Shown here: piece by piece, positions 4,939 through 32,200 of the stretch
Layout of the letters: every line of letters starts with the position of its first letter
How positions within the stretch are numbered: the stretch's first letter is position 1
Source: Lactimicrobium massiliense
GTDB taxonomy: Bacteria; Bacillota_I; Bacilli_A; Erysipelotrichales; Erysipelotrichaceae
Reading direction: 5' to 3'
DNA: 64,000 nucleotides
NCBI RefSeq assembly: GCF_900343155.1
Contig: NZ_OUNG01000002.1
Coordinates: forward strand, 248,001-312,000
Translations under genes and position numbers: made by a program
Notes under the pieces: model-generated
What the model was told of the DNA's origin: nothing
Databases searched by the model: none
Seen by the model: the letters and a program-made list of their open reading frames with translations, nothing else

Positions 4939-6324
4939 GTGAGCATTTCTGCTTCACATTTGAGCTTTGCCTATGATGAGCAGGGACCTCTGATTCTGAA
5001 AGACCTGAGCTGTGAATTCAAACAGGAGGATATCACCCTGCTGGATGGTAATACCGGGGAAGGAAAGTCAACTTTCCTGTATCTTGCGGCAGGGCTGTAT
5101 CCGCATTATGCCGGTTTTTTGAAAGAAGGTACCGTACTTGTAGATGGAAAGGATCCTGGAAAAATGGATCCATCTGAACGCTGCCATTATGTTGGTATGA
5201 TGTTTCAGAATCCTGACCTGCAGTTCTGTATGGATACGGTACGCAATGAGATGATCTTCTGTTTGGAAAATCTTCAGGAAAAGAAGGAAAACTTTGAACA
5301 GAAAATCAAAGAAGCACTGGCTTTCTGCGGTATTTCCCATCTGGAGAACAGAAAGCTGATGATCCTGTCAGGCGGTGAAAAGCAGAAAACAGCATTGGCA
5401 TGTTTATGGCTTCTGAGACCCAGATGGCTGCTGTTGGATGAGCCATTTGCCAGCATAGATCAGGCATCCAGGCATGATCTTGTTCAAAAACTAATGCAGA
5501 TGCACAGACAGTACGGTACAGGCATTGTGGCGGTGGACCATCATCCTGAAAACTGGCTTGGCGCTGCCACTTCTGTATGCCATATGCGCAATGGTCAGAT
5601 TTTTCCTGGAAATCTGCAAGATCTGAATCCTGAACCAGTGCCATACATGGCAGATACAGGAAGAAATCACATTGGTGATGTTGTGCTGCAGATGCAGGAT
5701 GTGACTGTATGGCATCAGGATGAGCAGCATCCTGTGATTGATCATGTAAATCTGACCCTTCGCCAGGGTGGCAGCTATGCCATCCTTGGCGAGAGTGGAT
5801 CAGGTAAAAGTACTTTGTTTGGCGCTGTATTCGGTTTGTATCCGTACCATGGGAAGATTCTTTTTCCGGATAAAGAGATCAGGAAAATGAGGCGCCATCT
5901 GGCTGGACAGATTGGGATGATTACGCAAAGCCCTCAGGATCAGTTTATTGGCGGAACCGTACGGGACGAGATTGAAGCTGGCATGAATAAAGATAACAAT
6001 GATGATGCCCAGAAAATCCTGCGTGAAATTCATTTATGGAAATATCGTGATGTTTCTCCTTATCTTTTAAGCCAGGGACAGCAGAGAAGACTTGGTGCAG
6101 CGGCAATGATGAACAGCCGCTGCCGGCTGCTGTTATGTGATGAGCCAACCTGTGCCCAGGATCCTCAGAGTGCATACACGATCATGACCAATCTGCTGCA
6201 GGAAGCCAGAGCAAAGCATATTGCACTTGTGTTTTCCACACATGAACAAGAACTTGCAAAGGTATTTGCGGATGAAATCTGGATGATCAAAGATCATACT
6301 TTGGTCAGAAAGGAGATTCGATGA
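4939..6324 (+). CDS. ykoD: YkoD-type fused double ATPase of ECF transporter
   Basis: This 461-residue protein contains two ABC ATPase domains in tandem. The first has Walker A GNTGEGKST (about 37-46) and signature LSGGEKQK (about 143). The second has GESGSGKST (about 283) and signature LSQGQQRR (about 375). It energises uptake by the YkoE/YkoC complex. The start is GTG at 4939, two bases after the preceding stop and without a clear ribosome site, so translation is probably coupled. The 3' part from 5741 is duplicated at 31096. The stop overlaps the ykoC start by 4 bp. Confidence 0.9.
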   Translation: MSISASHLSFAYDEQGPLILKDLSCEFKQEDITLLDGNTGEGKSTFLYLAAGLYPHYAGFLKEGTVLVDGKDPGKMDPSERCHYVGMMFQNPDLQFCMDTVRNEMIFCLENLQEKKENFEQKIKEALAFCGISHLENRKLMILSGGEKQKTALACLWLLRPRWLLLDEPFASIDQASRHDLVQKLMQMHRQYGTGIVAVDHHPENWLGAATSVCHMRNGQIFPGNLQDLNPEPVPYMADTGRNHIGDVVLQMQDVTVWHQDEQHPVIDHVNLTLRQGGSYAILGESGSGKSTLFGAVFGLYPYHGKILFPDKEIRKMRRHLAGQIGMITQSPQDQFIGGTVRDEIEAGMNKDNNDDAQKILREIHLWKYRDVSPYLLSQGQQRRLGAAAMMNSRCRLLLCDEPTCAQDPQSAYTIMTNLLQEARAKHIALVFSTHEQELAKVFADEIWMIKDHTLVRKEIR

Positions 6325-6845
6325 GCTCTCTTAACCCATCTGCGAAACTGATTGGCCTTGTCGTGATGACAATGATTCTGGCAGGCGTTCACAATCCAAT
6401 CCTGAATGTTGTTGTTTTTCTGGTGTCATCCATCCTCTGTCTGCAGTCATTGATCAAGGAACACAGGGGTGTTCATCTCTATTTTTATCCAATGATTCCT
6501 ATTACCCTGCTGGCAGTTGGAATGTTCTTTACCGGATACCGTTTCACTTCTGCGCCATCTTCGGTTGTAAACAGTCATATCATGACAGGTTCTACACTGG
6601 CAATGATTCCCGGGAATGTTTATAACGGCCTGATCTTTGCCTCAAGAGTGCTTGTGTATGCATCAATCGGCCTGTTGTTTGCTTTGACTAGTGATCCGGT
6701 CACAATGGTGCGCTCCTTTGAAAAACAGCTCCATGTTCCGCAGATGTTTGCCTATGGGCTGCTTGCGGCATGGAATGTATTTCCACACATGGCACAGGAA
6801 TACAAGAAGACAAAGATTGCATTCCAGGCTAGGGGCATTCATGTA
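5741..6845 (+). repeat. 1,105-bp direct repeat, left copy (target duplication of composite transposon)
   Basis: The sequence from ATCATGTAAATC to GGCATTCATGTA recurs at 31096-32200 in the same orientation, offset by exactly 25,355 bp. The only difference I find is T at 6675 against C at 32030, silent in ykoC. The copies abut the outer ends of the two inverted IS elements, as a target-site duplication would. Confidence 0.93.
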
Positions 6846-6869
6846 CCCAACTTTGACAGTTTGAAGTAA
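6321..6869 (+). pseudogene. ykoC: ykoC truncated by IS insertion (ECF transporter T component)
   Basis: The first 175 codons match the intact copy at 31676 exactly at protein level. The frame then enters the IS at 6846 and ends after the alien tail NFDSLK. The last quarter of the T component, including the final membrane part, is lost (182 residues against 242). It still has the native start overlapping ykoD. Whether the shortened protein still couples YkoE to YkoD is unknown, but loss of function is likely. Confidence 0.9.
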
Positions 6870-6877
6870 TGAAAGTG

Positions 6878-6920
6878 CTAGAAATTCCGATGAATATTGG
6901 ATTTTCCAGCACTTTTTGCG
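6878..6920 (+). terminator. Terminator at the 3' end of the IS, facing out of ykoC
   Basis: AGTGCTAGAAATTCC pairs imperfectly with GGATTTTCCAGCACT and is followed by TTTTTGCGTTTTGATTTTT on the plus strand. It would stop transcripts coming from the ykoC fragment. The same hairpin ends the transposase transcript on the minus strand with a weaker T-run. Confidence 0.6.
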
Positions 6921-6946
6921 TTTTGATTTTTGTAGTATGTAGGGGC

Positions 6947-8794
6947 CTATCCGGACGTCTTTTTGAATTTTTTTCTGAGGAAACCGACCTTGTATCTCTT
7001 CTTGTCTAATCCTGCATTTGTATAGTTCTCGAGGGCATCCAGTGTTTTACTTCCTTTGTAGGTTGAAAGATAGTACATTCCATCATCTGCAACATTCATA
7101 TTCTTCAGTGTGGTAATCAGATTTCTGGCCGTGATGTGTGTGCTTCTGTCATCCAGGCTGCAGCTCAGCAGACGATAGACAAGCAGAGCTGTGTAGCACA
7201 CCAGGAAATGTGCTTTGATTCTTCTCTGTGCACTGTGGTACACAGGCTTTGATCCAAAGTTTGTCTTCATCACTCTGAAACAGTCTTCAATCATGTAGCG
7301 CTTGTGCATAATGTTCAGTACATCTTTCACATTGGCATCTGTCAGATTCGTCGCAACGGCATAGTAGCCATCGTACTTCTCTTCTTCATCGATTCTTGCC
7401 TGATCCAGATCATAGCTTACTTCTGCTTCCTTTCCGTCCTTGTCCCTGGCGATACGCTTCAGAAAACGCCGGACGTCATTCGGACCTTTCTTGATTTCTT
7501 CCGGATCCTTCATCTTGATCATCTGCTTTGCACGCTCGATCTGTCTGTTTCGTACGGTCCGCTGGTACTCCATCATTTTCCTGGAGAAGGTGATGATTAC
7601 AACCTGCTCCAGAGTTCCCTTGGCTTTGACTTTGCGGGAACTTCCGTTCTGTAACTGCTTGTATTCAAACAGTCCAAGATCAATTGCTTTGTATGCAGTG
7701 TCATTGTACAGAGCCAGATTCTCAGGATTGCGGTGGTCAAACTCTTTCATGAAGCTGATCGTTACAGGTTTGTCATTTGACAGGAGCCTGTAGTTTTTAT
7801 CGTTGAAGACAACAGCCTTCACTTCTTCAGAAAGCTTCTTTACTGACTGCGTTACAATGAAGGATCTGCCGCCCATCGCATTGAACTGACGGATATTGTA
7901 GGAGCCAAGTCCGGCATCTGCACAGTAGATGATGTTGGATTTCTCAAGAGCCGGCAGGATCTTCTTCTCCAATGGTACTGCAGTAACCTGCTCACTGGTG
8001 TTGCCGGAATGCAGGCACATCGTGATCGGAATACCGCGCTTGTCCATGAGCAGTCCCATTTCCACAATCGGATTGGGACGGTGCTCTTTACTGACACCAT
8101 ATTTTCGAAGCCCATAGGACAGTAATTCTCCTGTCACTTCATCGAAGATGTCTTCATCATCCTGCTCGGTCTCACAGTAGAAATTGGTGCAGTCATAGTA
8201 GACCACAGAAGAATCACGGGGAATGACATGGCTGCTGTTCTGATACAGCCATTCAAGATAAGCGTCGGTATTGTTCTCCAGAATATCAAGAAAGCGCAGG
8301 ATCTGATGATACTGGATGTCAGGCTGCTCAAAGAAGGAATCCAGATGATCACACGTGCCATACTTGGAGCACGGATCCAGAATTCTGCTGTATGTAAGGA
8401 ACTTATTGATCTGGTTATAGTCGAACGTATCACGTCGATCTGCTGTATGAATGTTGAAAAACTCATTCAGGCGCAGCTGATTGTAAATGTACTGAAGATA
8501 GAAGTAGCCAATGTTCTTCAGAGAAGAGCGGGAGGCGTCATCGGAAGTCTGGTCAACTTTTTCGTTGAGATCAACAGAGATCTGAACGGACTCTTTTCCC
8601 TGCCTGGAATCTTCATTCATCCTGGCGATCAGCTGCTTGCAGTAAGCAACGGGATCATCAGTAATCTTAAGAAGCTCAGAATGCTTGCCCAGCTTTTTCA
8701 CATTCTTGGTAGTTGATTTGCCATCAGTCGTACGGAAACCCATCTGAGCATAGTAGGTTGGATCTTTCAAACGCTTATCATAGTAAAGTTTCAT
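6947..8794 (-). CDS. IS1634-family transposase (left copy)
   Basis: This 615-residue DDE transposase has the likely catalytic residues D201 (YYDCTNF), D293 (YCADAGLG) and E503 (YMIEDCFRVMK). A late conserved stretch is IKAHFLVCYTALLVYRLL. The start MKLYYDKRLKDPTYYAQMGF follows AGAAGGTATGCAGGC. The protein is identical to the copy at 29147. It would cut and join the element's ends, and the two copies could act together on the whole composite. Confidence 0.93.
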   Translation of the reverse strand: MKLYYDKRLKDPTYYAQMGFRTTDGKSTTKNVKKLGKHSELLKITDDPVAYCKQLIARMNEDSRQGKESVQISVDLNEKVDQTSDDASRSSLKNIGYFYLQYIYNQLRLNEFFNIHTADRRDTFDYNQINKFLTYSRILDPCSKYGTCDHLDSFFEQPDIQYHQILRFLDILENNTDAYLEWLYQNSSHVIPRDSSVVYYDCTNFYCETEQDDEDIFDEVTGELLSYGLRKYGVSKEHRPNPIVEMGLLMDKRGIPITMCLHSGNTSEQVTAVPLEKKILPALEKSNIIYCADAGLGSYNIRQFNAMGGRSFIVTQSVKKLSEEVKAVVFNDKNYRLLSNDKPVTISFMKEFDHRNPENLALYNDTAYKAIDLGLFEYKQLQNGSSRKVKAKGTLEQVVIITFSRKMMEYQRTVRNRQIERAKQMIKMKDPEEIKKGPNDVRRFLKRIARDKDGKEAEVSYDLDQARIDEEEKYDGYYAVATNLTDANVKDVLNIMHKRYMIEDCFRVMKTNFGSKPVYHSAQRRIKAHFLVCYTALLVYRLLSCSLDDRSTHITARNLITTLKNMNVADDGMYYLSTYKGSKTLDALENYTNAGLDKKRYKVGFLRKKFKKTSG

Positions 8795-9053
8795 GCCTGC
8801 ATACCTTCTACAGGACTATTGTACCATAAAACATACAACACATACAACATGAAAATATAAGAAATTTGACAAAAATAGACAAAGAAAAAGCCGCAGTCAT
8901 GCGGTTTTCGAGAAATTCTATTCAAAGCAAACTGTCAAAGTCCCGTGCCTTTCACTTTACGCCTTACTGAATCACGAACCAGAAGATCTGACTGACATAC
9001 AGGACAAACGCAGGTTTCATTAATCCTGATTAAAAATGCTTTCTTCTCCGGCA

Positions 9054-9180: not shown

Positions 9181-9390
9181 GCCCAGGGACAAACAACCTG
9201 AGCTGCTAATAGACATTATATAAGAGGCGTAACATTTAACTACAGACTACATTTTGCCGTTTTTATCAGTATAAGTACGCTTTATTAGCATATTTTACAT
9301 TGCCTATGATGTTTAAACATATATTTAAGAAACACAAAAATAATTAAAATATATAATTACAATTGACAGCGCTTACACATCAATATATTA
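9181..9390 (+). repeat. 210-bp direct repeat, left copy (target duplication of second IS1634 element)
   Basis: The segment beginning GCCCAGGGACAAAC recurs at 11298-11507, offset 2,117 bp, apparently without mismatch. It ends one base short of completing the -10 box TATTAT of the operon promoter (here TATTAC), which shows the insertion hit inside that box. The rest of 8945-9180 is cargo sequence with no gene I can support beyond the short-transcript candidate. Confidence 0.92.
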
Positions 9391-9420
9391 CCTGACTTTA
9401 GAAGTTAACGTTAAAAAATG

Positions 9421-9459
9421 GTGCTAAACCTCCGATATCAAAATCGGAAGTTCAGCACT
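9421..9459 (-). terminator. Transposase terminator of second IS1634 element
   Basis: On the minus strand GTGCTGAACTTCCGAT pairs with ATCGGAGGTTTAGCAC and is followed by CATTTTTT. The stem overlaps the transposase stop codon. Confidence 0.75.
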
Positions 9460-11132
9460 TTTTCTATTTTTCTGGAGTTCAATATATAGTGATCCAGAGG
9501 CAGCTTTGTCATCTCTGCAAACTCCTTTATAAAGGGACTGTTGGTTGCCAGATTGATGTATTTTCCATCTGCTTCTACTACATTGAATTCCTTCATGAAA
9601 TTGAATATTTCTGATGAAGAGTATTTATTTTCCAAAATCTTAAATTGAAGGATCCTGCCCAGAAGAACTGTCAGATAACAGACCAGAAAATGTCCTTTGA
9701 TTGTGTCCTCTTTCTGCAAGAATACAGGGCGTGCATCCAGGTCGGATTTCATGATCCGGAAGGATTCTTCAATACGCCAGAGATTGTGATAGGTGCTGTA
9801 GATGTCTTTGGGAGCCATATTAACTTCTGAAGTTACCAGCAGGTTATAACCTGCCAGCTTAAGGTCTTTCTCGATTTGCGCTTCATTTATCTCTGTAACC
9901 ACCTTGTCATCTGTCTTTTCGCCTTTACTGGTTGACTTGAATGTGACGTATTTTGAAGATTCACCATATTCATTTTTCTTGGCCATAGACTGAGATAATC
10001 TGGTGGCTTTATCAACCATTTTCATGATTTCAAATTTCTTCTTTTTAGCCAGCTGCGGATTGTATGTTACAACCCGTTTTTCTTTTAAATTGACTGTATG
10101 CTTTTTGCCGTCTTTGTCTGTATAGGTATATGGGAATTTGTCGACACATGCCTTCCATTTGTATTTAAGGCTTCCATCTGGGTTCGTAACATTCTGATAT
10201 CCGTTTTCCAGAAGAACCCATACTTTTTCCTTTTCAGGAAGTGTCTTTACAGATTTAGAAAAGAGATAGCCATCACCATTGCTTACCGCGTTAATGATAT
10301 TTTCAGAGCAGTTGAGTCCCTTGTCAGCTACCTGTATGGTTTTCCCTTTAATGCCTTGTCTGTTTTTCATAGAGGCAATAATATCCCTGAGAACTGGTTT
10401 CTCGGATTCGTTCCCTGGATACATTCTCATCCCAATCGGAATCTGGTTGGCATCCAGCAGAAGGCCAAGCCCAATGATAGGATCTTTCCTGTTTTCCTTA
10501 CTTGGCCCTTTTCTTCTGAAATCGTCTTCACGGTCAATTTCAAAATAGAAGTTTGTGCAGTCAAAATATGTTGTCGAAGTGGAAAGACTGTACTTTTCGG
10601 AAACCTGAGCAGTAAATAATTCAACAATTTTTTCATAATTACTTCCAAGAAACTCTATTCCTTTGAGCATCTGATTATAGGAGTAATCATATTCCTGAAA
10701 CAGGAATGGCAGCACCTCGTGGAAAGTGCGTAATTTACTGCATGGATTGATAGCACGCGCATAGATCAACGAAAAGAGAACATCCGTAATCTTGAACTGA
10801 AAGTCATTAGTAAGCTGATACAGATCGATAAATCTTTTCACCTGCAGCTTTTCGAGAATTGCATGCAGGGGAAAGTAGCCTAAAGAGCGCATCGGAGAAG
10901 AAGTAGAGATGCGTTTGACTTTCTCTTTCTTGCGTTCCTGATTCATCTCTTCAACAACTTGTTTGTAGTGAGTGACAGGATCCGGAATTTCATCAGTCTT
11001 CAAATCATTTACATAGCCCAAAGCCTTGTAAGAACGATGGCAGGTCTGTCTCCTTTCCGGGTTGTAGAAAGACTCGTAGATCTGCAGATAGACACCTTTT
11101 TTCAGGTTAGATTTCTTAAGAAAGTAGGCCAT
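9438..11132 (-). CDS. IS1634-family transposase (second type)
   Basis: This 564-residue transposase shares the family blocks with the 615-residue enzyme: YFDCTNFYFEIDREDD, VADKGLNCSENI and WRIEESFRIMKSDL, giving the D, D and E of the catalytic triad. The open frame reaches 11168, but the ATG at 11132 follows AGAGGG and a TGCTATAAT extended -10, so it is preferred. The intervening insertion domain is charged and lysine-rich. No frameshift is seen, so the element may be active. Confidence 0.9.
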   Translation of the reverse strand: MAYFLKKSNLKKGVYLQIYESFYNPERRQTCHRSYKALGYVNDLKTDEIPDPVTHYKQVVEEMNQERKKEKVKRISTSSPMRSLGYFPLHAILEKLQVKRFIDLYQLTNDFQFKITDVLFSLIYARAINPCSKLRTFHEVLPFLFQEYDYSYNQMLKGIEFLGSNYEKIVELFTAQVSEKYSLSTSTTYFDCTNFYFEIDREDDFRRKGPSKENRKDPIIGLGLLLDANQIPIGMRMYPGNESEKPVLRDIIASMKNRQGIKGKTIQVADKGLNCSENIINAVSNGDGYLFSKSVKTLPEKEKVWVLLENGYQNVTNPDGSLKYKWKACVDKFPYTYTDKDGKKHTVNLKEKRVVTYNPQLAKKKKFEIMKMVDKATRLSQSMAKKNEYGESSKYVTFKSTSKGEKTDDKVVTEINEAQIEKDLKLAGYNLLVTSEVNMAPKDIYSTYHNLWRIEESFRIMKSDLDARPVFLQKEDTIKGHFLVCYLTVLLGRILQFKILENKYSSSEIFNFMKEFNVVEADGKYINLATNSPFIKEFAEMTKLPLDHYILNSRKIEKVLNFRF

Positions 11133-11297
11133 AAAGCACCCTCTTATATTATAGCACCATAACACCATATATAGAATAGTTAAAAAATAAATTTGTCAAA
11201 TTTTCACGCATCAAAAAAATCCCATGAAATAGGGCTGAATGAATGATTTGACTAATAAGGACTCCTAAAGATTCATGGTGCTATGCTCTAAAGACGG

Positions 11298-11507
11298 GCC
11301 CAGGGACAAACAACCTGAGCTGCTAATAGACATTATATAAGAGGCGTAACATTTAACTACAGACTACATTTTGCCGTTTTTATCAGTATAAGTACGCTTT
11401 ATTAGCATATTTTACATTGCCTATGATGTTTAAACATATATTTAAGAAACACAAAAATAATTAAAATATATAATTACAATTGACAGCGCTTACACATCAA
11501 TATATTA
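11298..11507 (+). repeat. 210-bp direct repeat, right copy, carrying the operon promoter
   Basis: Identical to 9181-9390. This copy keeps the complete TTGACA-17-TATTAT promoter with the downstream operon. The duplication therefore left the sugar operon with its native regulatory region despite the IS insertion. Confidence 0.92.
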
Positions 11508-11508
11508 T
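11480..11508 (+). promoter_or_regulatory. Sugar operon promoter overlapped by a cre-like CcpA site
   Basis: TTGACA (11480-11485), a 17-bp spacer and TATTAT (11503-11508) form a near-consensus promoter. The 14-bp TGACAGCGCTTACA (11481-11494) matches the cre consensus at 13 positions and covers the -35 and spacer. CcpA binding there would block RNA polymerase, so repression by preferred sugars is expected. Confidence 0.85.
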
Positions 11509-11542
11509 TATCGTAAACAAGGAAGAAAGTTGAGGATGAAAG

Positions 11543-12223
11543 ATGAAACAGTACATTGCTCCATCGATTATCTGTGGAAATCGTCTGAATCTCGAGGCAG
11601 AAATTCAAGAGCTGAATCGTTCAGATGCGGACCTGATTCACTTTGATGTAATGGATACTACATTTACGCCAATGGACCCAACAACCTGTTTGTCACCAGA
11701 CTTAATTCCATTATTTCGAAAACGAACAAACATTCCGTTGGATATTCACATCGAAATCAATGAACCATATAATCTGATTTGCAACATTCTTCCATATTGT
11801 GAAGGCTGCTATATTCAGGTACATATTGAATGCTGTTCAAAGATCAGTCATTACATAGATCTGATCAGAAAAGGAGGAGCCTATCCTGCTATTGCACTTA
11901 ATTGCGGTACATCACTGGAATTGATTCGCGACGTAATTGAAGAAGTTGATTTGATTGATCTTTGTACAACAAATTCAAAAAATGGATCGCATGCATTTAC
12001 AGAATCACTTCAGAGGAAAATTCGCAAGGCAAGAGAGATGACACTGGAAGTTGGCAGAAAGTATATGATTATCGAAGTTGATGGAGGGATCAATTTCGAA
12101 CGGGCTGAAAAATGCAAAATTCTTGGTGCAAATGCGTATGTGTTAGGGACAAAGAGTGTTTACAACCAGAATAAGAGTGTTTCGGAAAAGATTAATGAAT
12201 TTCGAAAATTCATCGAAAAATAA
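11543..12223 (+). CDS. Ribulose-phosphate 3-epimerase-like protein
   Basis: This 226-residue TIM-barrel protein resembles ribulose-5-phosphate and allulose-6-phosphate 3-epimerases. APSIICGN, LIHFDVMD, LDIHIEI and IIEVDGGINFE supply the expected metal-binding and acid/base residues. The loop that normally reads NPGFGGQxF is NSKNGSHAF, so the phosphate-side pocket has changed. It is the first gene of the operon, with ribosome site GTTGAGGATGAAAG. A 3-epimerisation of a phosphorylated ketose is likely, but the substrate is unknown and should not be assumed to be ribulose 5-phosphate. Confidence 0.8.
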   Translation: MKQYIAPSIICGNRLNLEAEIQELNRSDADLIHFDVMDTTFTPMDPTTCLSPDLIPLFRKRTNIPLDIHIEINEPYNLICNILPYCEGCYIQVHIECCSKISHYIDLIRKGGAYPAIALNCGTSLELIRDVIEEVDLIDLCTTNSKNGSHAFTESLQRKIRKAREMTLEVGRKYMIIEVDGGINFERAEKCKILGANAYVLGTKSVYNQNKSVSEKINEFRKFIEK

Positions 12224-12247
12224 AATTAATCTTCAGGAGGGGAGACT

Positions 12248-12871
12248 ATGAAGAGTTATTCCATTGTTCTAATAATAGGGGTGATAGTTACATTCCTGTA
12301 TTCTGTTTTTCATGACCTAAAACTTCGCAAAAAACGCAAACAAGTTCTGGAAGAACTGACGATCGCTTTAATGAAAGGGGATAATCAGAAATACGAAATT
12401 ATTTTGTCAGATAATCAAGGAATGTTTCCGAGATTTAATCTTGCATATCTTCAGCTCGAAAATGAAATCGCACAGAATAACTATTCAAACATCAGAAAGT
12501 CATTGGCAGATTTTGAACAGGCTAAGCTAAATAAGAAGCAAAAGAAAGCGCTTTACGGAATGCTATTCAATTATTTTATGGCGCAGGGACATTACAAAGA
12601 AGGTGGTACATGTCTAAAAAAGTTGAAAGAAGATGGAGTTACAGAGAGTGTTCATCATTGTGAAATTATTTACGACACTTTAGCGGAGAATGGATCAGCG
12701 TATATTGATGAAGTATTAAAAAGAGTTGAAACAGAATCTGGTGAAAAGCGACTTCGCAGTACATATTTGTTATCTAAGATGTACGCGAATCAAGGCGACT
12801 TGCTTAATGCCCGAAAATATGAACAGGAAGTCCAGGAAAACATAATAGCTTTGCTTCAGACACAAGCTTAA
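12248..12871 (+). CDS. Unknown membrane-anchored helical-repeat protein
   Basis: I do not recognise this 207-residue protein. It has one N-terminal membrane segment (about 5-22, SIVLIIGVIVTFLYSVF), a basic stretch LRKKRKQ, then a soluble helical region with TPR-like spacing. Topology suggests a cytoplasmic domain held at the membrane. It has its own strong ribosome site (AGGAGGGGAG) and lies between the epimerase and aldolase genes, inside the operon. A scaffold for the PTS or enzymes is conceivable but unsupported. Confidence 0.7.
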   Translation: MKSYSIVLIIGVIVTFLYSVFHDLKLRKKRKQVLEELTIALMKGDNQKYEIILSDNQGMFPRFNLAYLQLENEIAQNNYSNIRKSLADFEQAKLNKKQKKALYGMLFNYFMAQGHYKEGGTCLKKLKEDGVTESVHHCEIIYDTLAENGSAYIDEVLKRVETESGEKRLRSTYLLSKMYANQGDLLNARKYEQEVQENIIALLQTQA

Positions 12872-12894
12872 TTCCGAGAAGTTAGGAGGAAACT

Positions 12895-13560
12895 ATGATT
12901 AGAAATATTAATAAATATATTGAACACAGTCATGGAAATAAAACAAATGAAGTGTTTGATGAATATCTTGAAGTAGCAAGAAAGTATAATGTGAGATGCT
13001 GCTTTGCCAATCGCTTTCAACGTGATCATGCTGTGAAATATCTGGAAGGAACAGATGTAATTGTTGCTGCGGGGGCTGATTTCCCGCTTGGACAAGAATC
13101 GATAGAAGCACAGCTTGCTGACTTCGAAGATTTGTATCGTGTTGGCTATCGTGAAATCGAAGGAACACTGAACCAGTATGCAGTTGAAAACAGACTGTAT
13201 GAATATTTGGAACGTGAGATCAGAGAACTCTCATTGTTCTGTAAAGATCGCGGAATCTTTACAAAGTTAATTCTTGAAACTTGTAAGATGGATGAAGAAT
13301 GTCTTGAAAAAGTATGTTTTATGGCATTGGATGCCGGCACCTCATGTCTGAAGACTTCGACTGGGAGGAGTTTTAAAGGAGCCGAACTTGAAAAGGTAAG
13401 ATTCATGAAATCAATCCTTGGAGATCGGGTCGCAATTAAAGCTTCAGGTGGGATAAGAACCTATGAGGATGCATGTGCATTTATCGAGGCTGGAGCGTCC
13501 TATATAGGTGCAAGCAATACGATTGAGATTATTGAAGGCGAAAGGAAGTATTTCAATTAA
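12895..13560 (+). CDS. DeoC-like class I aldolase
   Basis: This 221-residue protein has the deoxyribose-phosphate aldolase signatures: Schiff-base lysine K153 in CLKTSTGRSF and the second lysine K182 in AIKASGGIRTYEDA. The strand that carries the catalytic aspartate of DERA (EVDVV or EIDMV) reads EIEGTLN, putting a glutamate (E89) in its place. The aldolase chemistry should be kept, but the acceptor or the proton relay may differ. In this operon it more likely cleaves a phosphorylated sugar intermediate than deoxyribose 5-phosphate from nucleosides, since no nucleoside genes are near. Confidence 0.85.
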   Translation: MIRNINKYIEHSHGNKTNEVFDEYLEVARKYNVRCCFANRFQRDHAVKYLEGTDVIVAAGADFPLGQESIEAQLADFEDLYRVGYREIEGTLNQYAVENRLYEYLEREIRELSLFCKDRGIFTKLILETCKMDEECLEKVCFMALDAGTSCLKTSTGRSFKGAELEKVRFMKSILGDRVAIKASGGIRTYEDACAFIEAGASYIGASNTIEIIEGERKYFN

Positions 13561-13691
13561 TAGCAATTGTAAACGGACTATTGTTGACAAAGATAAAACA
13601 ATTTAAATCAATAGAAATTATTAAAAGATGTTATTAATGCGCAAATTTTGATGAAAAGGAGAAAAAAATTCTGCGAAAGTTAGGAAAAAGA

Positions 13692-14123
13692 ATGGAAAAG
13701 ATAACAAAAATTGTAGTAGCAACGCACGGAAAGCTTGCAGAAGGATTTAAAAGCGCAATGAACATAATTGCTGGAGACACGACAGAAGTTAAATTTCTGT
13801 CCTGCTATACTACTCCGGATTTCGATATGGAAGAAACAGTGCAGCAAGTGTTCAAAGAAACAGATTTCGAACATGAAAACTTACTGGTCTGTACAGATCT
13901 GTTTGGTGGAAGTGTATGCAATTGGTTTATGAAACATTATAACGACCATCCATTTTTCCTGGTCGCGAACGTAAACCTAGGTATTCTGGTAGATTTCTTA
14001 TTAACTGGAGAAGAGCTAAATGTTGAGTTGCTTAGAGAGAAGTGTAACAGCGATCTCCATAAGCCGGTTGAAGTCAGTTCCAGAATGGAAGATATAGAAG
14101 AGGATGATGATGATGATCTTTAA
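13692..14123 (+). CDS. PTS mannose-family EIIA component
   Basis: This 143-residue EIIA-Man domain has its phosphorylatable histidine at H12 (VVATHGKLAEGF) and the LVCTDLFGGSVCN stretch. It takes phosphate from HPr and passes it to the IIB protein encoded next. The tail is strongly acidic (EDIEEDDDDDL), which is unusual. The 131-bp gap before it contains a TTGACA and an AT-rich stretch, so an internal promoter is possible but not clear. IIA, IIB, IIC and IID follow in the standard order. Confidence 0.92.
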   Translation: MEKITKIVVATHGKLAEGFKSAMNIIAGDTTEVKFLSCYTTPDFDMEETVQQVFKETDFEHENLLVCTDLFGGSVCNWFMKHYNDHPFFLVANVNLGILVDFLLTGEELNVELLREKCNSDLHKPVEVSSRMEDIEEDDDDDL

Positions 14124-14192
14124 TTACTCAAACAGGACGGAAGCGGAGTAAAGAAAAAGATCAAATTTAAAAAAATAGAAAGGAGAAAGGAA

Positions 14193-14666: not shown

Positions 14667-14681
14667 GAGGAGATTAGAAAA

Positions 14682-15470: not shown

Positions 15471-15484
15471 AGGAGGATCACAAA

Positions 15485-16321: not shown

Positions 16322-16361
16322 TAAACTCAATGAAATAACATTAGAAAAGGAGAAAAATGAA

Positions 16362-17412: not shown

Positions 17413-17444
17413 GAAGTAAGATTGTGTTTTAAGAGGAAAATTTG

Positions 17445-19879: not shown

Positions 19880-19900
19880 AAAGCGGAAAAGGAAAAGTGT

Positions 19901-21351: not shown

Positions 21352-21400
21352 GGCTTTAATACTGTTGCATAAAAGCATGCAAGAATGTATATTATAATCA

Positions 21401-21536: not shown

Positions 21537-21593
21537 AAACGGAACGGCTGTTCCGCTTCATCGGTGCGCCGTTCCGCTTTAGCGGAACGCTAG

Positions 21594-23875: not shown

Positions 23876-24001
23876 TGTAATCTCCTTTCATCAAACTACA
23901 CAACCATAATAAAAGGCGCACCGTTAAAGCGACGCGCCCGCACCGTCAATTCAACATAAATGCACCGGTTTTAGCGGAAGACATGTACCGACGAACCGGA
24001 A

Positions 24002-25288
24002 TTTGCACTTTGAGACGCAGAGTTTTTGGCATTAAGCACAATGAACACAATCCGCATGTTTCACCAGATCAGCTGTCATTGTTTAACGAAGCAGAAGCGA
24101 TTGATGATACTGCTTCTGTTGATCAACTGTCTGCCTGTAAAGCCGATTCAGAGTTCATTGGCCACAGCTTCTGTAATCAGCCATATTGCGTATGAGAAAT
24201 ATCTGGTCGCTGTTCCCATCTATCGTTTGTCTAAAAATCTCAGGACCAGAGGAATTGAAATCAGCCGCCAGGTAATGTGCAGTTGACTGATGAAGTGTGC
24301 AGAGCTATATCTGGATCCCATCGTCAGACGAATGACTGAGGATCTGAGAAAGTGTAAAGTTCTCAATATGGATGAAACATCGCTTGAGGTTCTGGAAGAT
24401 ATTCGTAACGGATCCAGAGAAAAGAGCTATACGTGGCTTGCCATGAGCGGAAAACACGAGACAAAGCAGATGGCTTTGTACTTTTATAATGTCTCAAGAG
24501 CATACAGCTTTATCTATGAGATCCTGGGCCATGGTTTTCATGGTGTCATTCAGTCAGATGGCTATCAGGCATATGACAAATATGAGGCTGCCAGCGCTCA
24601 TGCCGGGTGCAGCGCACACTGCCGCAGAAAATTTGAAGAAGCAGCGAAAGCCTATACTGATCTCTATGCAAAGTATAGCAGCCTGAAAGATAAAGAAGAG
24701 ATCAAACAACTTCTTGATAACAATCCGTCCTTCGGCATCATCATTCGCTTTCTGGATGAATACTCAAAACTCTATGGCATAGAGAAACAGTTGAATGAAG
24801 CCAAGGCATCCCCAGAGATTATTCTCAGGATCAGGCCGGAAAAAGAGAAGCCAATATGGGAAGAGCTCAGGAATCAGCTGGATTACATGGATGAGAAACT
24901 CATGACCAGCGGAAAGCTGGGAAAAGCGATTACATACGCAAAGAATCAGTGGGACATGCTGATGTATTATCTGAGCGACTGGCAGGTTGGGTTGGATAAT
25001 AATCTGGCTGAGCGTGAAGGAATAAAACCTTTTGTCCTGGCGAGAAAAAATTTCCTGTTCGCTGATACAAAGCATGGAGCGAAATACTCCTGCATGTACT
25101 TCTCGATCTTAATATCAGCCAGAATGAATTCCCTGAACCCAGAGAAATATCTAGCCTGGCTGATTGATCAGATGGCAAGAGCTTCAGTCAATGGAGGCAT
25201 TCAGGAAGAAGATATCCAGAGATGCCTGCCATACGCAGCTGATCTGCCACAAGATCTTCAAATTTCAAAGAACTGCTCTGAATCCTGA
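24002..25288 (+). pseudogene. tnpC: IS66 transposase TnpC, C-terminal part, frameshifted
   Basis: It resumes with GICTLRRRVFG and SPDQLSLFNEAEAIDD, then an internal stretch is missing near 24165. The frame shifts to SHIAYEKYLVAVPIYRLSKN, and a TGA at 24284-24286 replaces the expected tryptophan codon before LMKCAELYLDP. From 24290 a 332-residue frame retains the DDE core (NMDETSLEV, QSDGYQAYD, NNLAEREGIKPFV). The gene cannot make a full transposase. Confidence 0.85.
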
Positions 25289-25421
25289 CACACATACAGG
25301 ATACTCAGAGCAGTCTTTATTTTCTATACGTGGCTATATTGACGCTTACATTACAACAACACAGCTTGAAATGGCTAGTTAATTTTTATTCGATGTACTA
25401 GTTTAAGTTTTCTTCAATCTT

Positions 25422-26159
25422 TTACTGATTGTTTTCATAGAGCAGTAGTCTGCTGAAATCCCGAACAACAAATGCATCGCCAACATAATAATTATCAGAA
25501 AGTTCAAATGGTTCATCGTCAACATTCCAAAAGATTGTTTGATGCATAAGGGCAATATTACTGTTATCAAAATATTGTTTTTGTTCTTCCGTCGGTAGAG
25601 TCGCCTGAAGCGTTGTGTAACCGTATGATTTTTTAATACCTGCCTGAATTACATATTCATCGAGGGAACCACTTAATTTTGAAATATCAATTACAGGAAG
25701 AATTTTTTGAGAAAGTCTAGCAACGGTGTAGCACAGCAGACGATCATTGGCATATTTTAGACGAACGATTTCATGAATGTATTCATTTGGCTTGATGTTC
25801 AGTATGGCTGACTGTTCAGGGAGCTCACTACCTTTCTTTACCTGATATGAGACAATAACTGTATGCGGTACCATACCGTTAGAAATGATAATGTCGTTGA
25901 TTGATTGAAGGCTATCCTGCGACGACTGAAATTTCTTTTTATAATCGTCACAAGCAAAGGAGCCTGTCCCAGGAACTCGACGGATATAACCATCTACGGC
26001 CAGCTGTGTCATTGCTTTATTAATTGTCATATGCGATGCAGAAAACTGTTGGATTATCTCTGGTTCCTGAGGGAGTGGAGAATCAGGTTTTATATATTCA
26101 TTGATAATCTGATCCCTGAAGTAATTATAAATTTCTTGATATTTAGGTTGTTTTGGCAT
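25422..26159 (-). CDS. GntR/HutC-family transcriptional regulator
   Basis: This 245-residue regulator has an N-terminal winged helix (YQEIYNYFRDQIINEYIKPD, SASHMTINKAMTQLAVDGYI) and a UTRA ligand-binding domain (about 85-240). HutC-type regulators sense phosphorylated sugars or amino acids. It is the only regulator in the cargo and is the obvious candidate to control the PTS operon, from which IS66 now separates it. An IS21 element sits 37 bp before its start and cuts it off from its original upstream region. The ribosome site is GAGAGGG. Confidence 0.85.
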   Translation of the reverse strand: MPKQPKYQEIYNYFRDQIINEYIKPDSPLPQEPEIIQQFSASHMTINKAMTQLAVDGYIRRVPGTGSFACDDYKKKFQSSQDSLQSINDIIISNGMVPHTVIVSYQVKKGSELPEQSAILNIKPNEYIHEIVRLKYANDRLLCYTVARLSQKILPVIDISKLSGSLDEYVIQAGIKKSYGYTTLQATLPTEEQKQYFDNSNIALMHQTIFWNVDDEPFELSDNYYVGDAFVVRDFSRLLLYENNQ

Positions 26160-26381
26160 GTCAAATCCCTCTCTTTATATATATTATCATTAAAAATGCA
26201 AACGGCGGTACGTTGGACCCAGTGAACCGGAAATTTTGGACCCGGTCTTCCGGATCTATCGGTACCGCCTTTTTTTGTGGCGAAGAAGCGTAAACTTCGA
26301 AGCGTCTCTTTTCTGACTAAGATGAAGCTGTACGGAAAGCAACGTGCAGCTTTTTCGTACGTCAAAGGAGGTGCTTTAAGC

Positions 26382-27968
26382 ATGGAAAAGTCAAAGTACA
26401 TTGACATCGCACGGTATCTATCTTCGGGATCATTCTCACAGCGGGATATTGCGGGAATGACCCACACATCAAAAAACAAGGTATCCATCATCAAGGAGGT
26501 GATGGAAAAGAACAAATGGATACCGGAAGATCTTGATCAGTTTGATTCGAGTCAGCTTGATAAGATCTTCAGAAGAAGTGACATTCCTCAATCGGATGGA
26601 CCAAAGCAGGTTCTCTATGTTGAGCCAGACTATGACCAGCTTTGTAAGGAGCTTCTCAAGCCTGGTGTCACTAAGAAACTCTTGTTTGATGAATATGCAG
26701 AGTCATGTGAAAGAGCCAATCTGCCCCATTTGCAGAAAACCCAGTTCCAGCTTCATCTTGAAGAACATTTGACCAAGAAATCTTATTCTGAGGTAATCAG
26801 GCATGAGCCTGGAAGAGAAATCGAAGTTGACTGGACCGGAGATCCAGCATACTGGAAAGATCCGTACACGGGAGAAATTCAGAAAGCGTGGCTGTTCGCT
26901 GCAATTCTGCCATTCAGCGGCTATGCATACGCTGAAGTCTTCCCGGATATGAAGCTGCCAAACTGGATTAAAGCAAATGTGCATATGCTGGAATACTTTC
27001 ATGGCAGTCCGCATGTCATCATCTGTGACAACCTCAAGACTGGTGTTATCAGGCATCCAAAGAACGGTGATGTTATCTATCAGGCTGATTATGAAGCGTT
27101 TGCCAACTATTACGGCATCATTCTTGAAGCTGCCAAGGTGCGGGCGCCACGATATAAAGCGCATGTAGAGAATGTCGTTGGCAAGTTTGAATCCGCCATC
27201 CTTGGTCGGCTGCGCAACATCCAGTGCTTCTCAATTGAGGAATACAACAAGTATGTTCGTAAGGAACTGGATGAATTCAATGCAAAGCCGTTTCAGAAGA
27301 AGGAAGGCAGCAGACTCAGCCTGTACACCGACTACGAAAAGGATCGGCTCTCTCCATTACCATCAATTCAATACGAATATTTCACCAGGAAAAAAGCAAA
27401 GATATATCCAAATATCTGTTTCCAATACAACAAGAATTTTTACTCTGTTCCGTATCAGCACATTGGTGAAGAAGTTTGGCTCAGGATCTTCAGTGACCGT
27501 ATTGAATGCTGGACTATGAAAGGTGATTTTATCTGCACGCACAAGATTAAGGCTGGTATTGGCAAGTATGACATCTGGGACGAACACCGCCCGCCAAACA
27601 GTGCAAGCTTCGGCAAGTGGAACAGTAACAGATTCCTGAAATGGGCAAAGGAGATCGGTCCATACACTTATGAAGTCGTTGACCGCTTCTTCAGAAACGG
27701 CGGTGCAGAGCAGCGTTATTACAATACCGTACTTTCAATACTAAAACTGACAGACACATATCCTCGGCCAAGAGTAGAACATGCCTGTCAGATAGCACTG
27801 GACCATTACAAAAGACCAGTCTACAAGAATATTAAAGCGATTCTTTATGCCGGACAAGATATGGCTGTAATACAGCCTGATACAGGTGAAGTTGAATCAG
27901 ATGGCACCCAGGAAAAGTCATTTGTCAGAGGAGCAGAGTATTATGCCAAGAAGAACAAGAAGAAATGA
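26382..27968 (+). CDS. istA: IS21-family transposase IstA (second element)
   Basis: This 528-residue transposase has a helix-turn-helix (SFSQRDIAGMTHTSKNKVS) and the rve core EIEVDWTGDPAYW, CDNLKTGVIRHP and the glutamate in ENVVGKFESAIL. The ATG at 26382 follows AAAGGAGGTGC and is preferred to the upstream in-frame start at 26277, which lies next to the element's end repeats. Confidence 0.9.
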   Translation: MEKSKYIDIARYLSSGSFSQRDIAGMTHTSKNKVSIIKEVMEKNKWIPEDLDQFDSSQLDKIFRRSDIPQSDGPKQVLYVEPDYDQLCKELLKPGVTKKLLFDEYAESCERANLPHLQKTQFQLHLEEHLTKKSYSEVIRHEPGREIEVDWTGDPAYWKDPYTGEIQKAWLFAAILPFSGYAYAEVFPDMKLPNWIKANVHMLEYFHGSPHVIICDNLKTGVIRHPKNGDVIYQADYEAFANYYGIILEAAKVRAPRYKAHVENVVGKFESAILGRLRNIQCFSIEEYNKYVRKELDEFNAKPFQKKEGSRLSLYTDYEKDRLSPLPSIQYEYFTRKKAKIYPNICFQYNKNFYSVPYQHIGEEVWLRIFSDRIECWTMKGDFICTHKIKAGIGKYDIWDEHRPPNSASFGKWNSNRFLKWAKEIGPYTYEVVDRFFRNGGAEQRYYNTVLSILKLTDTYPRPRVEHACQIALDHYKRPVYKNIKAILYAGQDMAVIQPDTGEVESDGTQEKSFVRGAEYYAKKNKKK

Positions 27969-28761
27969 AATCACGCCGAAAACCGTCAGTAAAGAAATAA
28001 GGCAGCTTGGCATGAAAGAAATGGCTGATCTCTTTGACGCAATGGCAGAAAGCGGTGAACTGGCTGATCAATCGGCACTGCAGGTAGTTGACCAGCTCAT
28101 CAGTTGTCAGCTGATTGGGAACGGCAATCGCACAGCAGACCGTTATAAGAAAGCAGCTAAACTGTTTTTCCCATCTGCAGATTTTAACAACCTTCTCTAT
28201 CTGCCTCAGAGACATTTGAATATTCCTCTGATCGATCAGCTGAAAACGTGTGAATTCATAGACAGTGAGCTGAACATCATGATTCAATCGGCAACAGGAG
28301 GCGGAAAGACGTTCCTTGCCTGTGCTTATGGCAACGAAGCATGTGAGCATGGGTATACAGTCAGATACTTCATCATGCCTGACCTTATGAGCACCTACCA
28401 CAATCAGGAAAGCAAAGGTAAAGGAGAGAAATTCCTCAGGAAGCTGGTTAATACGAACCTGGTGATCATTGACGACTTTATGCTTACCAGGATAACCAGT
28501 GAAGATGCGGATTTCCTGTACCGACTGATCTCATCGAAACCCAGATCCAGTATTCATCGTTCTTTCCTGATCTGCTCACAGCTAATGCCTGAAGAAATGT
28601 ATAACCGGCTTTCACAGGCAGGAGGCGCAATCGCAGATACGATCATGAACCGTCTGACTGCCAAGGCATACACAATAACACTCGAAGGTGACAGCATGAG
28701 AAATATCGATATAGCTGCCGCCCTTGCACAGCAGCAAGCTTCACGAAGTAATACACAGTAA
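27943..28761 (+). CDS. istB: IS21-family helper ATPase IstB (second element)
   Basis: This 272-residue AAA+ ATPase has Walker A QSATGGGKTFLACAYG and Walker B LVIIDDFML. The ATG at 27943 follows GAGGAG and overlaps istA by 26 bp; the open frame extends further upstream within istA. It partners the IstA encoded just before. Confidence 0.88.
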   Translation: MPRRTRRNEITPKTVSKEIRQLGMKEMADLFDAMAESGELADQSALQVVDQLISCQLIGNGNRTADRYKKAAKLFFPSADFNNLLYLPQRHLNIPLIDQLKTCEFIDSELNIMIQSATGGGKTFLACAYGNEACEHGYTVRYFIMPDLMSTYHNQESKGKGEKFLRKLVNTNLVIIDDFMLTRITSEDADFLYRLISSKPRSSIHRSFLICSQLMPEEMYNRLSQAGGAIADTIMNRLTAKAYTITLEGDSMRNIDIAAALAQQQASRSNTQ

Positions 28762-28996: not shown

Positions 28997-31095
28997 GGGA
29001 CTTTGACAGTTTGCTTTGAATAGAATTTCTCGAAAACCGCATGACTGCGGCTTTTTCTTTATCTAATTTTGTCAAATTTCTTGTATTTTTATGTTGTATG
29101 TGTTGTATGCTTTATGGTACACTAGTCCTGTAGAAGGTATGCAGGCATGAAACTTTACTATGATAAGCGTTTGAAAGATCCAACCTACTATGCTCAGATG
29201 GGTTTCCGTACAACTGATGGCAAATCAACTACCAAGAATGTGAAAAAGCTGGGCAAGCATTCTGAGCTTCTTAAGATTACTGATGATCCCGTTGCTTACT
29301 GCAAGCAGCTGATCGCCAGGATGAATGAAGATTCCAGGCAGGGAAAAGAGTCCGTTCAGATCTCTGTTGATCTCAACGAAAAAGTTGACCAGACTTCCGA
29401 TGACGCCTCCCGCTCTTCTCTGAAGAACATTGGCTACTTCTATCTTCAGTACATTTACAATCAGCTGCGCCTGAATGAGTTTTTCAACATTCATACAGCA
29501 GATCGACGTGATACGTTCGACTATAACCAGATCAATAAGTTCCTTACATACAGCAGAATTCTGGATCCGTGCTCCAAGTATGGCACGTGTGATCATCTGG
29601 ATTCCTTCTTTGAGCAGCCTGACATCCAGTATCATCAGATCCTGCGCTTTCTTGATATTCTGGAGAACAATACCGACGCTTATCTTGAATGGCTGTATCA
29701 GAACAGCAGCCATGTCATTCCCCGTGATTCTTCTGTGGTCTACTATGACTGCACCAATTTCTACTGTGAGACCGAGCAGGATGATGAAGACATCTTCGAT
29801 GAAGTGACAGGAGAATTACTGTCCTATGGGCTTCGAAAATATGGTGTCAGTAAAGAGCACCGTCCCAATCCGATTGTGGAAATGGGACTGCTCATGGACA
29901 AGCGCGGTATTCCGATCACGATGTGCCTGCATTCCGGCAACACCAGTGAGCAGGTTACTGCAGTACCATTGGAGAAGAAGATCCTGCCGGCTCTTGAGAA
30001 ATCCAACATCATCTACTGTGCAGATGCCGGACTTGGCTCCTACAATATCCGTCAGTTCAATGCGATGGGCGGCAGATCCTTCATTGTAACGCAGTCAGTA
30101 AAGAAGCTTTCTGAAGAAGTGAAGGCTGTTGTCTTCAACGATAAAAACTACAGGCTCCTGTCAAATGACAAACCTGTAACGATCAGCTTCATGAAAGAGT
30201 TTGACCACCGCAATCCTGAGAATCTGGCTCTGTACAATGACACTGCATACAAAGCAATTGATCTTGGACTGTTTGAATACAAGCAGTTACAGAACGGAAG
30301 TTCCCGCAAAGTCAAAGCCAAGGGAACTCTGGAGCAGGTTGTAATCATCACCTTCTCCAGGAAAATGATGGAGTACCAGCGGACCGTACGAAACAGACAG
30401 ATCGAGCGTGCAAAGCAGATGATCAAGATGAAGGATCCGGAAGAAATCAAGAAAGGTCCGAATGACGTCCGGCGTTTTCTGAAGCGTATCGCCAGGGACA
30501 AGGACGGAAAGGAAGCAGAAGTAAGCTATGATCTGGATCAGGCAAGAATCGATGAAGAAGAGAAGTACGATGGCTACTATGCCGTTGCGACGAATCTGAC
30601 AGATGCCAATGTGAAAGATGTACTGAACATTATGCACAAGCGCTACATGATTGAAGACTGTTTCAGAGTGATGAAGACAAACTTTGGATCAAAGCCTGTG
30701 TACCACAGTGCACAGAGAAGAATCAAAGCACATTTCCTGGTGTGCTACACAGCTCTGCTTGTCTATCGTCTGCTGAGCTGCAGCCTGGATGACAGAAGCA
30801 CACACATCACGGCCAGAAATCTGATTACCACACTGAAGAATATGAATGTTGCAGATGATGGAATGTACTATCTTTCAACCTACAAAGGAAGTAAAACACT
30901 GGATGCCCTCGAGAACTATACAAATGCAGGATTAGACAAGAAGAGATACAAGGTCGGTTTCCTCAGAAAAAAATTCAAAAAGACGTCCGGATAGGCCCCT
31001 ACATACTACAAAAATCAAAACGCAAAAAGTGCTGGAAAATCCAATATTCATCGGAATTTCTAGCACTTTCATTACTTCAAACTGTCAAAGTTGGG
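28997..31095 (+). mobile_element. IS1634-family insertion sequence, right copy
   Basis: The inverted copy of 6846-8944, same length. The coding part and both ends match, but the promoter region differs by six substitutions within 62 bp (29061-29122). The 92 bp between the second IS21 and this element (28905-28996) hold no gene. Confidence 0.92.
29147..30994 (+). CDS. IS1634-family transposase (right copy)
   Basis: The 615-residue protein is identical to that at 6947-8794, with D201, D293 and E503 as probable catalytic residues. Transcription runs toward the duplicated ykoD/ykoC segment, with only a weak terminator (stem 31029-31065, followed by TTCATTA) between. Read-through from this gene is the most obvious source of ykoC transcripts. 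Confidence 0.93.
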   Translation: MKLYYDKRLKDPTYYAQMGFRTTDGKSTTKNVKKLGKHSELLKITDDPVAYCKQLIARMNEDSRQGKESVQISVDLNEKVDQTSDDASRSSLKNIGYFYLQYIYNQLRLNEFFNIHTADRRDTFDYNQINKFLTYSRILDPCSKYGTCDHLDSFFEQPDIQYHQILRFLDILENNTDAYLEWLYQNSSHVIPRDSSVVYYDCTNFYCETEQDDEDIFDEVTGELLSYGLRKYGVSKEHRPNPIVEMGLLMDKRGIPITMCLHSGNTSEQVTAVPLEKKILPALEKSNIIYCADAGLGSYNIRQFNAMGGRSFIVTQSVKKLSEEVKAVVFNDKNYRLLSNDKPVTISFMKEFDHRNPENLALYNDTAYKAIDLGLFEYKQLQNGSSRKVKAKGTLEQVVIITFSRKMMEYQRTVRNRQIERAKQMIKMKDPEEIKKGPNDVRRFLKRIARDKDGKEAEVSYDLDQARIDEEEKYDGYYAVATNLTDANVKDVLNIMHKRYMIEDCFRVMKTNFGSKPVYHSAQRRIKAHFLVCYTALLVYRLLSCSLDDRSTHITARNLITTLKNMNVADDGMYYLSTYKGSKTLDALENYTNAGLDKKRYKVGFLRKKFKKTSG

Positions 31096-31679
31096 ATCAT
31101 GTAAATCTGACCCTTCGCCAGGGTGGCAGCTATGCCATCCTTGGCGAGAGTGGATCAGGTAAAAGTACTTTGTTTGGCGCTGTATTCGGTTTGTATCCGT
31201 ACCATGGGAAGATTCTTTTTCCGGATAAAGAGATCAGGAAAATGAGGCGCCATCTGGCTGGACAGATTGGGATGATTACGCAAAGCCCTCAGGATCAGTT
31301 TATTGGCGGAACCGTACGGGACGAGATTGAAGCTGGCATGAATAAAGATAACAATGATGATGCCCAGAAAATCCTGCGTGAAATTCATTTATGGAAATAT
31401 CGTGATGTTTCTCCTTATCTTTTAAGCCAGGGACAGCAGAGAAGACTTGGTGCAGCGGCAATGATGAACAGCCGCTGCCGGCTGCTGTTATGTGATGAGC
31501 CAACCTGTGCCCAGGATCCTCAGAGTGCATACACGATCATGACCAATCTGCTGCAGGAAGCCAGAGCAAAGCATATTGCACTTGTGTTTTCCACACATGA
31601 ACAAGAACTTGCAAAGGTATTTGCGGATGAAATCTGGATGATCAAAGATCATACTTTGGTCAGAAAGGAGATTCGATGA
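31096..31679 (+). pseudogene. ykoD: ykoD 3' fragment, headless copy
   Basis: This stretch encodes the second ATPase domain of YkoD (residues about 268-461), identical to the full copy. An open frame starts inside the IS at 31029 and adds IS-derived residues in front. It keeps Walker A GESGSGKST and signature LSQGQQRR but lacks the first ATPase domain. A product is possible, though a functional ATPase half without its partner is doubtful. Confidence 0.85.
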
Positions 31680-32200
31680 GCTCTCTTAACCCATCTGCGA
31701 AACTGATTGGCCTTGTCGTGATGACAATGATTCTGGCAGGCGTTCACAATCCAATCCTGAATGTTGTTGTTTTTCTGGTGTCATCCATCCTCTGTCTGCA
31801 GTCATTGATCAAGGAACACAGGGGTGTTCATCTCTATTTTTATCCAATGATTCCTATTACCCTGCTGGCAGTTGGAATGTTCTTTACCGGATACCGTTTC
31901 ACTTCTGCGCCATCTTCGGTTGTAAACAGTCATATCATGACAGGTTCTACACTGGCAATGATTCCCGGGAATGTTTATAACGGCCTGATCTTTGCCTCAA
32001 GAGTGCTTGTGTATGCATCAATCGGCCTGCTGTTTGCTTTGACTAGTGATCCGGTCACAATGGTGCGCTCCTTTGAAAAACAGCTCCATGTTCCGCAGAT
32101 GTTTGCCTATGGGCTGCTTGCGGCATGGAATGTATTTCCACACATGGCACAGGAATACAAGAAGACAAAGATTGCATTCCAGGCTAGGGGCATTCATGTA
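31096..32200 (+). repeat. 1,105-bp direct repeat, right copy
   Basis: Matches 5741-6845 with one difference (C at 32030). Beyond 32200 the sequence continues into the native ykoC 3' end, so this side shows the pre-insertion junction. Confidence 0.93.

Follow-up and report, generated by a model that had tools for sequence, protein, structure and literature searches.

How could the insertion of a transposable unit duplicate more than a kilobase of its target? Long variable target duplications by IS1549 and IS1634 were reportedly described in 1998-99. The statements of a 2008 survey on the IS1634 family give duplications of 8-514 bp for these two elements, with no mechanistic model proposed as of then, and of 5-6 bp for most other members (PMC2266710). 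In the window analyzed here, a 64,000-nucleotide stretch of Lactimicrobium massiliense DNA, two mutually inverted IS1634-family elements and the DNA between them interrupt ykoD-ykoC, and the sequence at their outer edges is a direct repeat of 1.1 kb.

The unit in ykoD-ykoC

Direct comparison of positions 5741-6845 with 31096-32200 bore out the original prediction that 1,105-bp direct repeats lie exactly outside the two IS: the copies differ by a single mismatch (6675/32030) and are flush, to the base, with the outer termini of both elements, and beyond each end of the repeats one further base matches, as by chance, before the sequences diverge. The left copy (+ strand) comprises the 3' part of ykoD and the first part of ykoC, and the right copy (+ strand) starts with ATCATGTAA, a weak -10-like candidate site that meets the right IS at its IRR, the term IRR denoting the IS end downstream of the transposase gene and IRL the other end. 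A ykoD-like ECF ATPase gene (461 aa, 4939-6324, + strand) is intact on the left side of the unit, and a gene for a ykoC-like (CbiQ) protein (242 aa, 31676-32404, + strand) is intact on the right, with a truncated left copy of the latter from 6321. The 1,105-bp stretch occurs at two places only in its own genome, the window pair. Among 60 same-genus genomes (own included), other DNA matches to the locus were at most 40 bp long, and at E 1e-20 a YkoC match was found in the own genome and in only two others of 204 genomes of the order (35 and 40% identity). Uninterrupted ykoD-ykoC relatives were considered for comparison, and neither the 60 nor the 204 genomes held one close enough.

The left IS occupies 6846-8944 (- strand) and the right IS 28997-31095 (+ strand), each with its IRR end outward; both outer ends of the composite are IRR and both inner ends are IRL. 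The two copies are 2,099 bp long, are mutually inverted and end in matching inverted repeats (GGGACTTTGACAG / CCCAACTTTGACAG). Their 7 mismatches all fall within the first 216 bp, a clustering that suggests patchy gene conversion may have acted on the pair. Set against a third copy of the IS, the right copy is odd at five of these positions and the left copy at two. Each element carries a gene for a 615-aa DDE_Tnp_1 transposase (6947-8794, - strand, in the left IS; 29147-30994, + strand, in the right IS), which matches the NCBIfam model NF033559 (IS1634) with E 4.3e-100 and 336 bits at a curated cut-off of 100; a sequence-based search returned no solved relative. At 2,099 bp the IS is slightly above the family range of near 1500-2000 bp stated in the survey, and its duplications of 106 and 1,105 bp are outside the 5-6 bp AT-rich norm stated there (PMC2266710). 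Since the same source lists IS1549 and IS1634 as long-repeat exceptions, a 5-6 bp duplication does not define the family, and membership follows from the transposase.

The two inverted 2,099-bp IS1634-family elements had been predicted to enclose 24,250 bp; the elements are as described, and 24,250 bp proved to be the length of the unit including both of them, with 20,052 bp (8945-28996) in between. No repeat joining the inner to the outer flank of either window IS was found (at E 1e-10). With repeats only outside the unit, and none running from inside to outside of a single IS, the 1,105-bp repeat belongs to the whole unit. The region has two features of a composite transposon, two IS copies around cargo and a repeat outside the unit only. 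Because the junctions are flush, the repeats lie outside the unit only, and an intact ykoD remains to the left and an intact ykoC to the right, the reading of the region put forward in the original prediction, a composite transposon that duplicated 1,105 bp of its target, is supported as the simplest one.

The sugar cargo of the unit (11543-20578, + strand) encodes an epimerase, a DeoC-like aldolase, PTS IIA-IIB-IIC-IID, two SIS proteins, a MATE transporter and a HAD phosphatase. The PTS is of the mannose/sorbose type, and one SIS protein is closest to fructoselysine-6-P deglycase, but below cut-off; we take the cargo to resemble a PTS operon for Amadori sugars (fructoselysine type). Its low GC (0.387 for 11508-20600 versus 0.48-0.50 outside the unit) suggests that the cargo may be of foreign origin. 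This part of the unit occurs once in the genome, and a related operon stretch with 68% identity to the cargo lies ~13-15 kb left of the window. Also inside the unit are IS66 genes, two IS21-family transposase genes and a GntR regulator (20729-28761), with adjoining IstB-like ORFs, and an inner element of a second IS1634-family cluster (9391-11297, - strand; transposase gene 9438-11168). The inner element has a perfect direct repeat of its own of ~210 bp (9181-9390 and 11298-11507), reported by BLAST as 219 bp with 3 mismatches.

Repeat lengths in the genome and among relatives

Nine IS1634-family transposase genes score above the cut-off in the L. massiliense genome, two of them being the window pair. 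Searching the genome for the same IS with long repeats, as originally proposed, yielded a third copy between perfect 106-bp direct repeats, and repeat length varies between copies of one IS (106 and 1,105 bp). Another IS1634-family element has an 831-bp repeat, a copy on C2 has two repeat blocks (178 and 150 bp, with one base between them), and an element on C3 has a 158-bp repeat with one end not flush; two of the nine loci have no repeat around them. Long repeats are the rule for IS1634-family elements in this genome and, given 106 bp at the third copy and 831 bp at another member, 1,105 bp is an extreme of normal behavior. At G000 C6:350716-350753 (L020), 38 bp of the IRL end of the window IS stand alone (97% identity), and the remainder of the IS was not matched there.

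Contigs were searched for relatives by alignment; the single 615-aa protein as a query gave no matches. The first set comprised 140 loci, 60 mostly from low-contig genomes of the order and 80 named loci mostly from Lachnospiraceae. Boundaries were set by the limits of the repeat and the letters of the IS ends, and the motif was never a criterion. Of the 140 loci, 75 have resolved ends and a nonredundant repeat of 25 bp or more (64 in cluster I, 11 in cluster II). The remaining loci are cut by a contig end, are duplicates, have unresolved ends, belong to a distant cluster or have no repeat; exclusions for unresolved ends were L111, L146, L158, L203, L213, L217 and L222, and L152, L191 and L198 represent the same insertion twice. 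The distant IS1634-like cluster (L130-L132, L141-L145, L341-L343) has neither clear ends nor long repeats. The second set, 39 further loci from the first-set genomes, gave 23 insertions, which are new insertions and not new lineages; L327 was removed from it after scoring, its false repeat being due to masked N. The combined set holds 97 nonredundant insertions in 34 genomes (with each single locus taken as a genome of its own), and the window events are left out. In cluster II (11 insertions and 2 in the second set), promoter boxes were counted one base into the repeat, an offset picked after viewing the alignment.

Repeats in the 97 insertions are 34-831 bp long (median 105) and are perfect in 93. 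Log-normal and shifted exponential distributions fit these lengths about equally; repeats shorter than 34 bp are absent, which is not significant under the log-normal fit (an estimated ~2 expected), and the lengths give no signal of ten-bp helical phasing. These findings show that long duplications are common in the surveyed clades. That 1.1 kb goes beyond the usual examples, as had been noted from the window, holds against the quoted range of 8-514 bp (PMC2266710) and against the single-IS insertions, of which 2/97 exceed 514 bp (578 and 831 bp).

Promoter sequence at the IRR junction

Across the 97 insertions from 34 genomes, the IRR end abuts ATTATANCA, mostly to the base, which on the other strand reads TGnTATAAT, an extended -10 element; at a few sites (e.g. 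L093, L100, L129) the hexamer is shifted by one or two bases. Counted from the IRR junction, repeat bases 1-6 in the 64 cluster I insertions are A95 T85 T81 A54 T93 A92 (percent), bases 8-9 are C56 A65 and bases 27-29 are C43 A70 A60, a profile that reads TTGACA-N17-TGnTATAAT on the other strand. For the 75 insertions of the first set, the -10 match averages 5.0 of 6 at the IRR versus 1.6-2.2 at the far end and flanks, and the -35 match is 2.71 at a spacer of 17 versus 1.3-2.0 at spacers 10-16 and 18-25. The 23 of the second set (including L327) have a mean -10 match of 4.9 and a -35 match of 3.0 at spacer 17 versus 1.4-2.4 at 13-16 and 18-21, and the TG extension is present in 30/75 and 10/23 insertions of the two sets, respectively. 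When all 97 are combined, ATTATA ranks first of its 20 permutations (5.02 versus 3.96 for the next) and is exact in 35, and TGTCAA ranks first of 180 at spacer 17 (2.78), with TTGCAA as a close runner-up (2.69); among spacers 14-20, 17 scores highest, 16 second and 18 third. Both boxes are found at 76/97 insertions versus 414/7372 shifted positions, and some IRR sites have a -10 only. Compared with its own control, the -10 match is higher in 34/34 genomes and the -35 match in 27/34.

In 85/97 insertions no predicted ORF covers the IRR junction (versus 591/2770 random points), the gene next to the junction reads away from the IS in 71/84 (versus 381/578 random), with a predicted start 21-60 bp away in 35/71, and convergent pairs are found at 3/84 (versus 97/578 random). 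The IRL end, 34-831 bp upstream of the IRR site, shows little motif. It is outside ORFs in 62/97 insertions, with the adjoining gene reading away in 52/61; the far end shows this same orientation because both ends often fall within one intergenic stretch, and orientation alone therefore does not single out the IRR side. In 57% of the 64 insertions of cluster I, a C follows the repeat at the far end, the same as the first base of those IS, which may be a weak one-base preference or microhomology. With its -10, TGn, -35 at 17 bp and downstream gene, the IRR junction in relatives is a predicted sigma-A-type promoter, and an insertion of the surveyed type duplicates this whole promoter together with upstream DNA and leaves one copy in place.

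Among loci left out of these sets for want of an accepted repeat, the IRR flank is readable at 35, and the -10 score there is 5 or 6 of 6 in 30; a few of the 35 duplicate insertions already counted or in fact carry a repeat. No exact repeat surrounds twelve distinct copies whose two flanks can be read and whose IRR scores 4-6 for the -10 (L173, L174, L196, L197, L202, L211, L313, L314, L322, L324, L337, L338); either later rearrangement or joining of the second end elsewhere may account for them. A -10 with the junction one base inside is present at two of the three G363 copies and at the sole G234 copy. In mycoplasma-like genomes, 6/12 copies have repeats of 37-176 bp, with no clear -10. A clear repeat is found at 4/9 plasmid loci measured, that of the Carnobacterium megaplasmid copy being in two blocks (175 and 144 bp); it starts AATATA, with TGTCAA 17 bp on, and the copy adjoins a PTS gene reading away. 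The Alicyclobacillus plasmid copies have repeats of 5 and 6 bp and the Rhodococcus copy one of 24 bp, and no clear repeat was found at the Cereibacter, Phaeobacter, Persicobacter and R. rhodochrous plasmid loci. Grouped elements were seen as well: L273 (Rhodococcus sp. M8-35 plasmid) carries a pair of inverted IS1634-family genes that share one protein accession and enclose a partial third, a composite-like arrangement; L313 and L315 (Mediterraneibacter massiliensis) are same-IS pairs ~290 bp apart in the same orientation, which could be nested insertions or array growth; and L309 is another neighboring IS pair.

The window IS itself appears to fit the promoter rule poorly, with the window events showing the pattern weakly. 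The right IRR junction of the composite (31096) is CATGAT, -10-like at 4 of 6 (top 0.69% of window positions), the left IRR junction (6845) has no -10 motif (top 22%), and the third copy has a weak -10 (top 4.45%). With both -10 and -35 scored, the composite junctions reach only the top 5-6% of positions, and both are within genes. The IRR flank of the inner element, AATATA, has the -10 profile (top 0.24%).

Proposed insertion route and known systems

We consider it probable (about 0.8) that a composite of two inverted IS carried the low-GC sugar operon along and entered ykoD-ykoC in one piece, and that the long repeat follows from target choice, with the IRR at a -10 edge and the other end a variable distance upstream. 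This explanation builds on the observed junctions, repeat lengths, promoter sequence at the IRR in relatives, asymmetry and gene orientation. Weighing against it are the poor fit of the window IS, the twelve copies that lack an exact repeat, the close runner-up to the -35 box, the like gene orientation at the far end, the long repeats of mycoplasma-like genomes with no clear -10 and the non-significant lack of repeats below 34 bp. The unit would have moved jointly into ykoD-ykoC via its two outward IRR ends, duplicating 1,105 bp: an IRR would be joined first, at the downstream edge of the -10 promoter element, joining of the other end would follow on the opposite strand, at some variable distance upstream (34-831 bp for single copies and 1,105 bp for the composite), and repair of the two long single-stranded arms would yield the duplication. 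Since the strand transfers are on opposite strands, a 1.1-kb duplication would mean 1.1 kb of separated strands that are then copied. Strand separation or synthesis from the first nick may set the repeat distance; a nick at the -10 edge could start synthesis upstream, with a strand displaced until the second end joins, and such nick-primed synthesis would give both a single direction and a variable length. The asymmetric motif implies that one end chooses the site, which in single copies would be the IRR. Joining order rather than end identity might make the asymmetry, as we infer from one weak case, the composite, in which two IRR are outside and only 31096 is -10-like.

Promoter-bound RNA polymerase, or the melted -10, is a candidate landing cue. 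A transposase guided to promoter-bound RNA polymerase would join the IRR to the melted -10 while the second end captures DNA upstream of the polymerase; the long repeats would keep the host promoter working, and a 24-kb unit could travel likewise, two IRR ends being sufficient. We put this proposal forward tentatively, at slightly under even odds. A somewhat less probable but serious alternative is that the transposase itself binds a bipartite promoter-like sequence and RNA polymerase has no part, which the sequence data cannot tell from a polymerase cue and which agrees with the sites that have a -10 only and with window events in or at coding DNA; the preferred sequence, however, carries several sigma-A promoter marks (TGn and a -35 match that is highest at 17 bp, then at 16 and at 18) in a sigma-A-like setting, intergenic and with a gene reading away that starts 21-60 bp off in 35/71.

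Entry of the unit through homologous recombination of IS copies, instead of joint transposition, is improbable. IS copies are able to recombine, and the confinement of all 7 differences to 216 bp suggests gene conversion, but recombination at a single IS gives, by established reasoning, direct IS copies or swapped repeat partners, whereas the two IS of this unit are in inverted orientation and its outer repeats are partners of one another. Very little credence is left for random insertion followed by selection, with promoter-sparing insertions as the survivors: the IRR junctions are indeed mostly intergenic, but selection is unlikely to set the junction at the TATAAT edge, mostly to the base, in 34/34 genomes, with a far end almost motif-free. 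Just as implausible is a window repeat that is an assembly artefact or an earlier tandem duplication that the unit entered, an idea to which the estimated 89% completeness of the genome lends something but which is opposed by repeats that abut both IS termini to the base and by the independent 106- and 831-bp repeats at other elements of the genome.

A promoter at one end only offers a testable model of long variable duplications and, if true, would mean a bacterial DDE transposase aimed at promoters. Such targeting would spare the host promoter, and cargo like the sugar operon of the window unit can be carried along. Long repeats should permit RecA excision that restores the target, and promoter targeting may through them allow such excision to be clean. 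Among the papers listed in searches of an open-access library with few subscription papers, we found no promoter targeting by the IS1634 family and no promoter-aimed bacterial DDE transposase.

The unit has the architecture of Tn10, in which an inverted IS pair around cargo is moved by its outer ends, whereas the duplication is 9 bp in Tn10 and 1,105 bp here. Landing upstream of a gene is shared with Ty1 and Ty3 of yeast, which sense the polymerase III gene machinery, land upstream of the gene and spare it, but which are eukaryotic retroelements with short duplications. Variable-length duplications tied to target structure are also reported for IS1630 of Mycoplasma fermentans (IS30 type), which differs in its family, its inverted-repeat targets and its short duplications of 16-26 bp (PMC3317919). 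IS1549 and IS1634 belong to the same transposase family as the window IS and likewise make long variable direct repeats, but are single IS with a shorter maximum (514 bp, the 1,105 bp of the window being about twice this), and the survey's statements on them mention no promoter at one junction (PMC2266710). Members of the family with short duplications, such as ISGka5 (6 bp in the description cited; PMC8024623) and the Alicyclobacillus copies (5 and 6 bp), have similar inverted repeats, so long repeats are the habit of only some family members.
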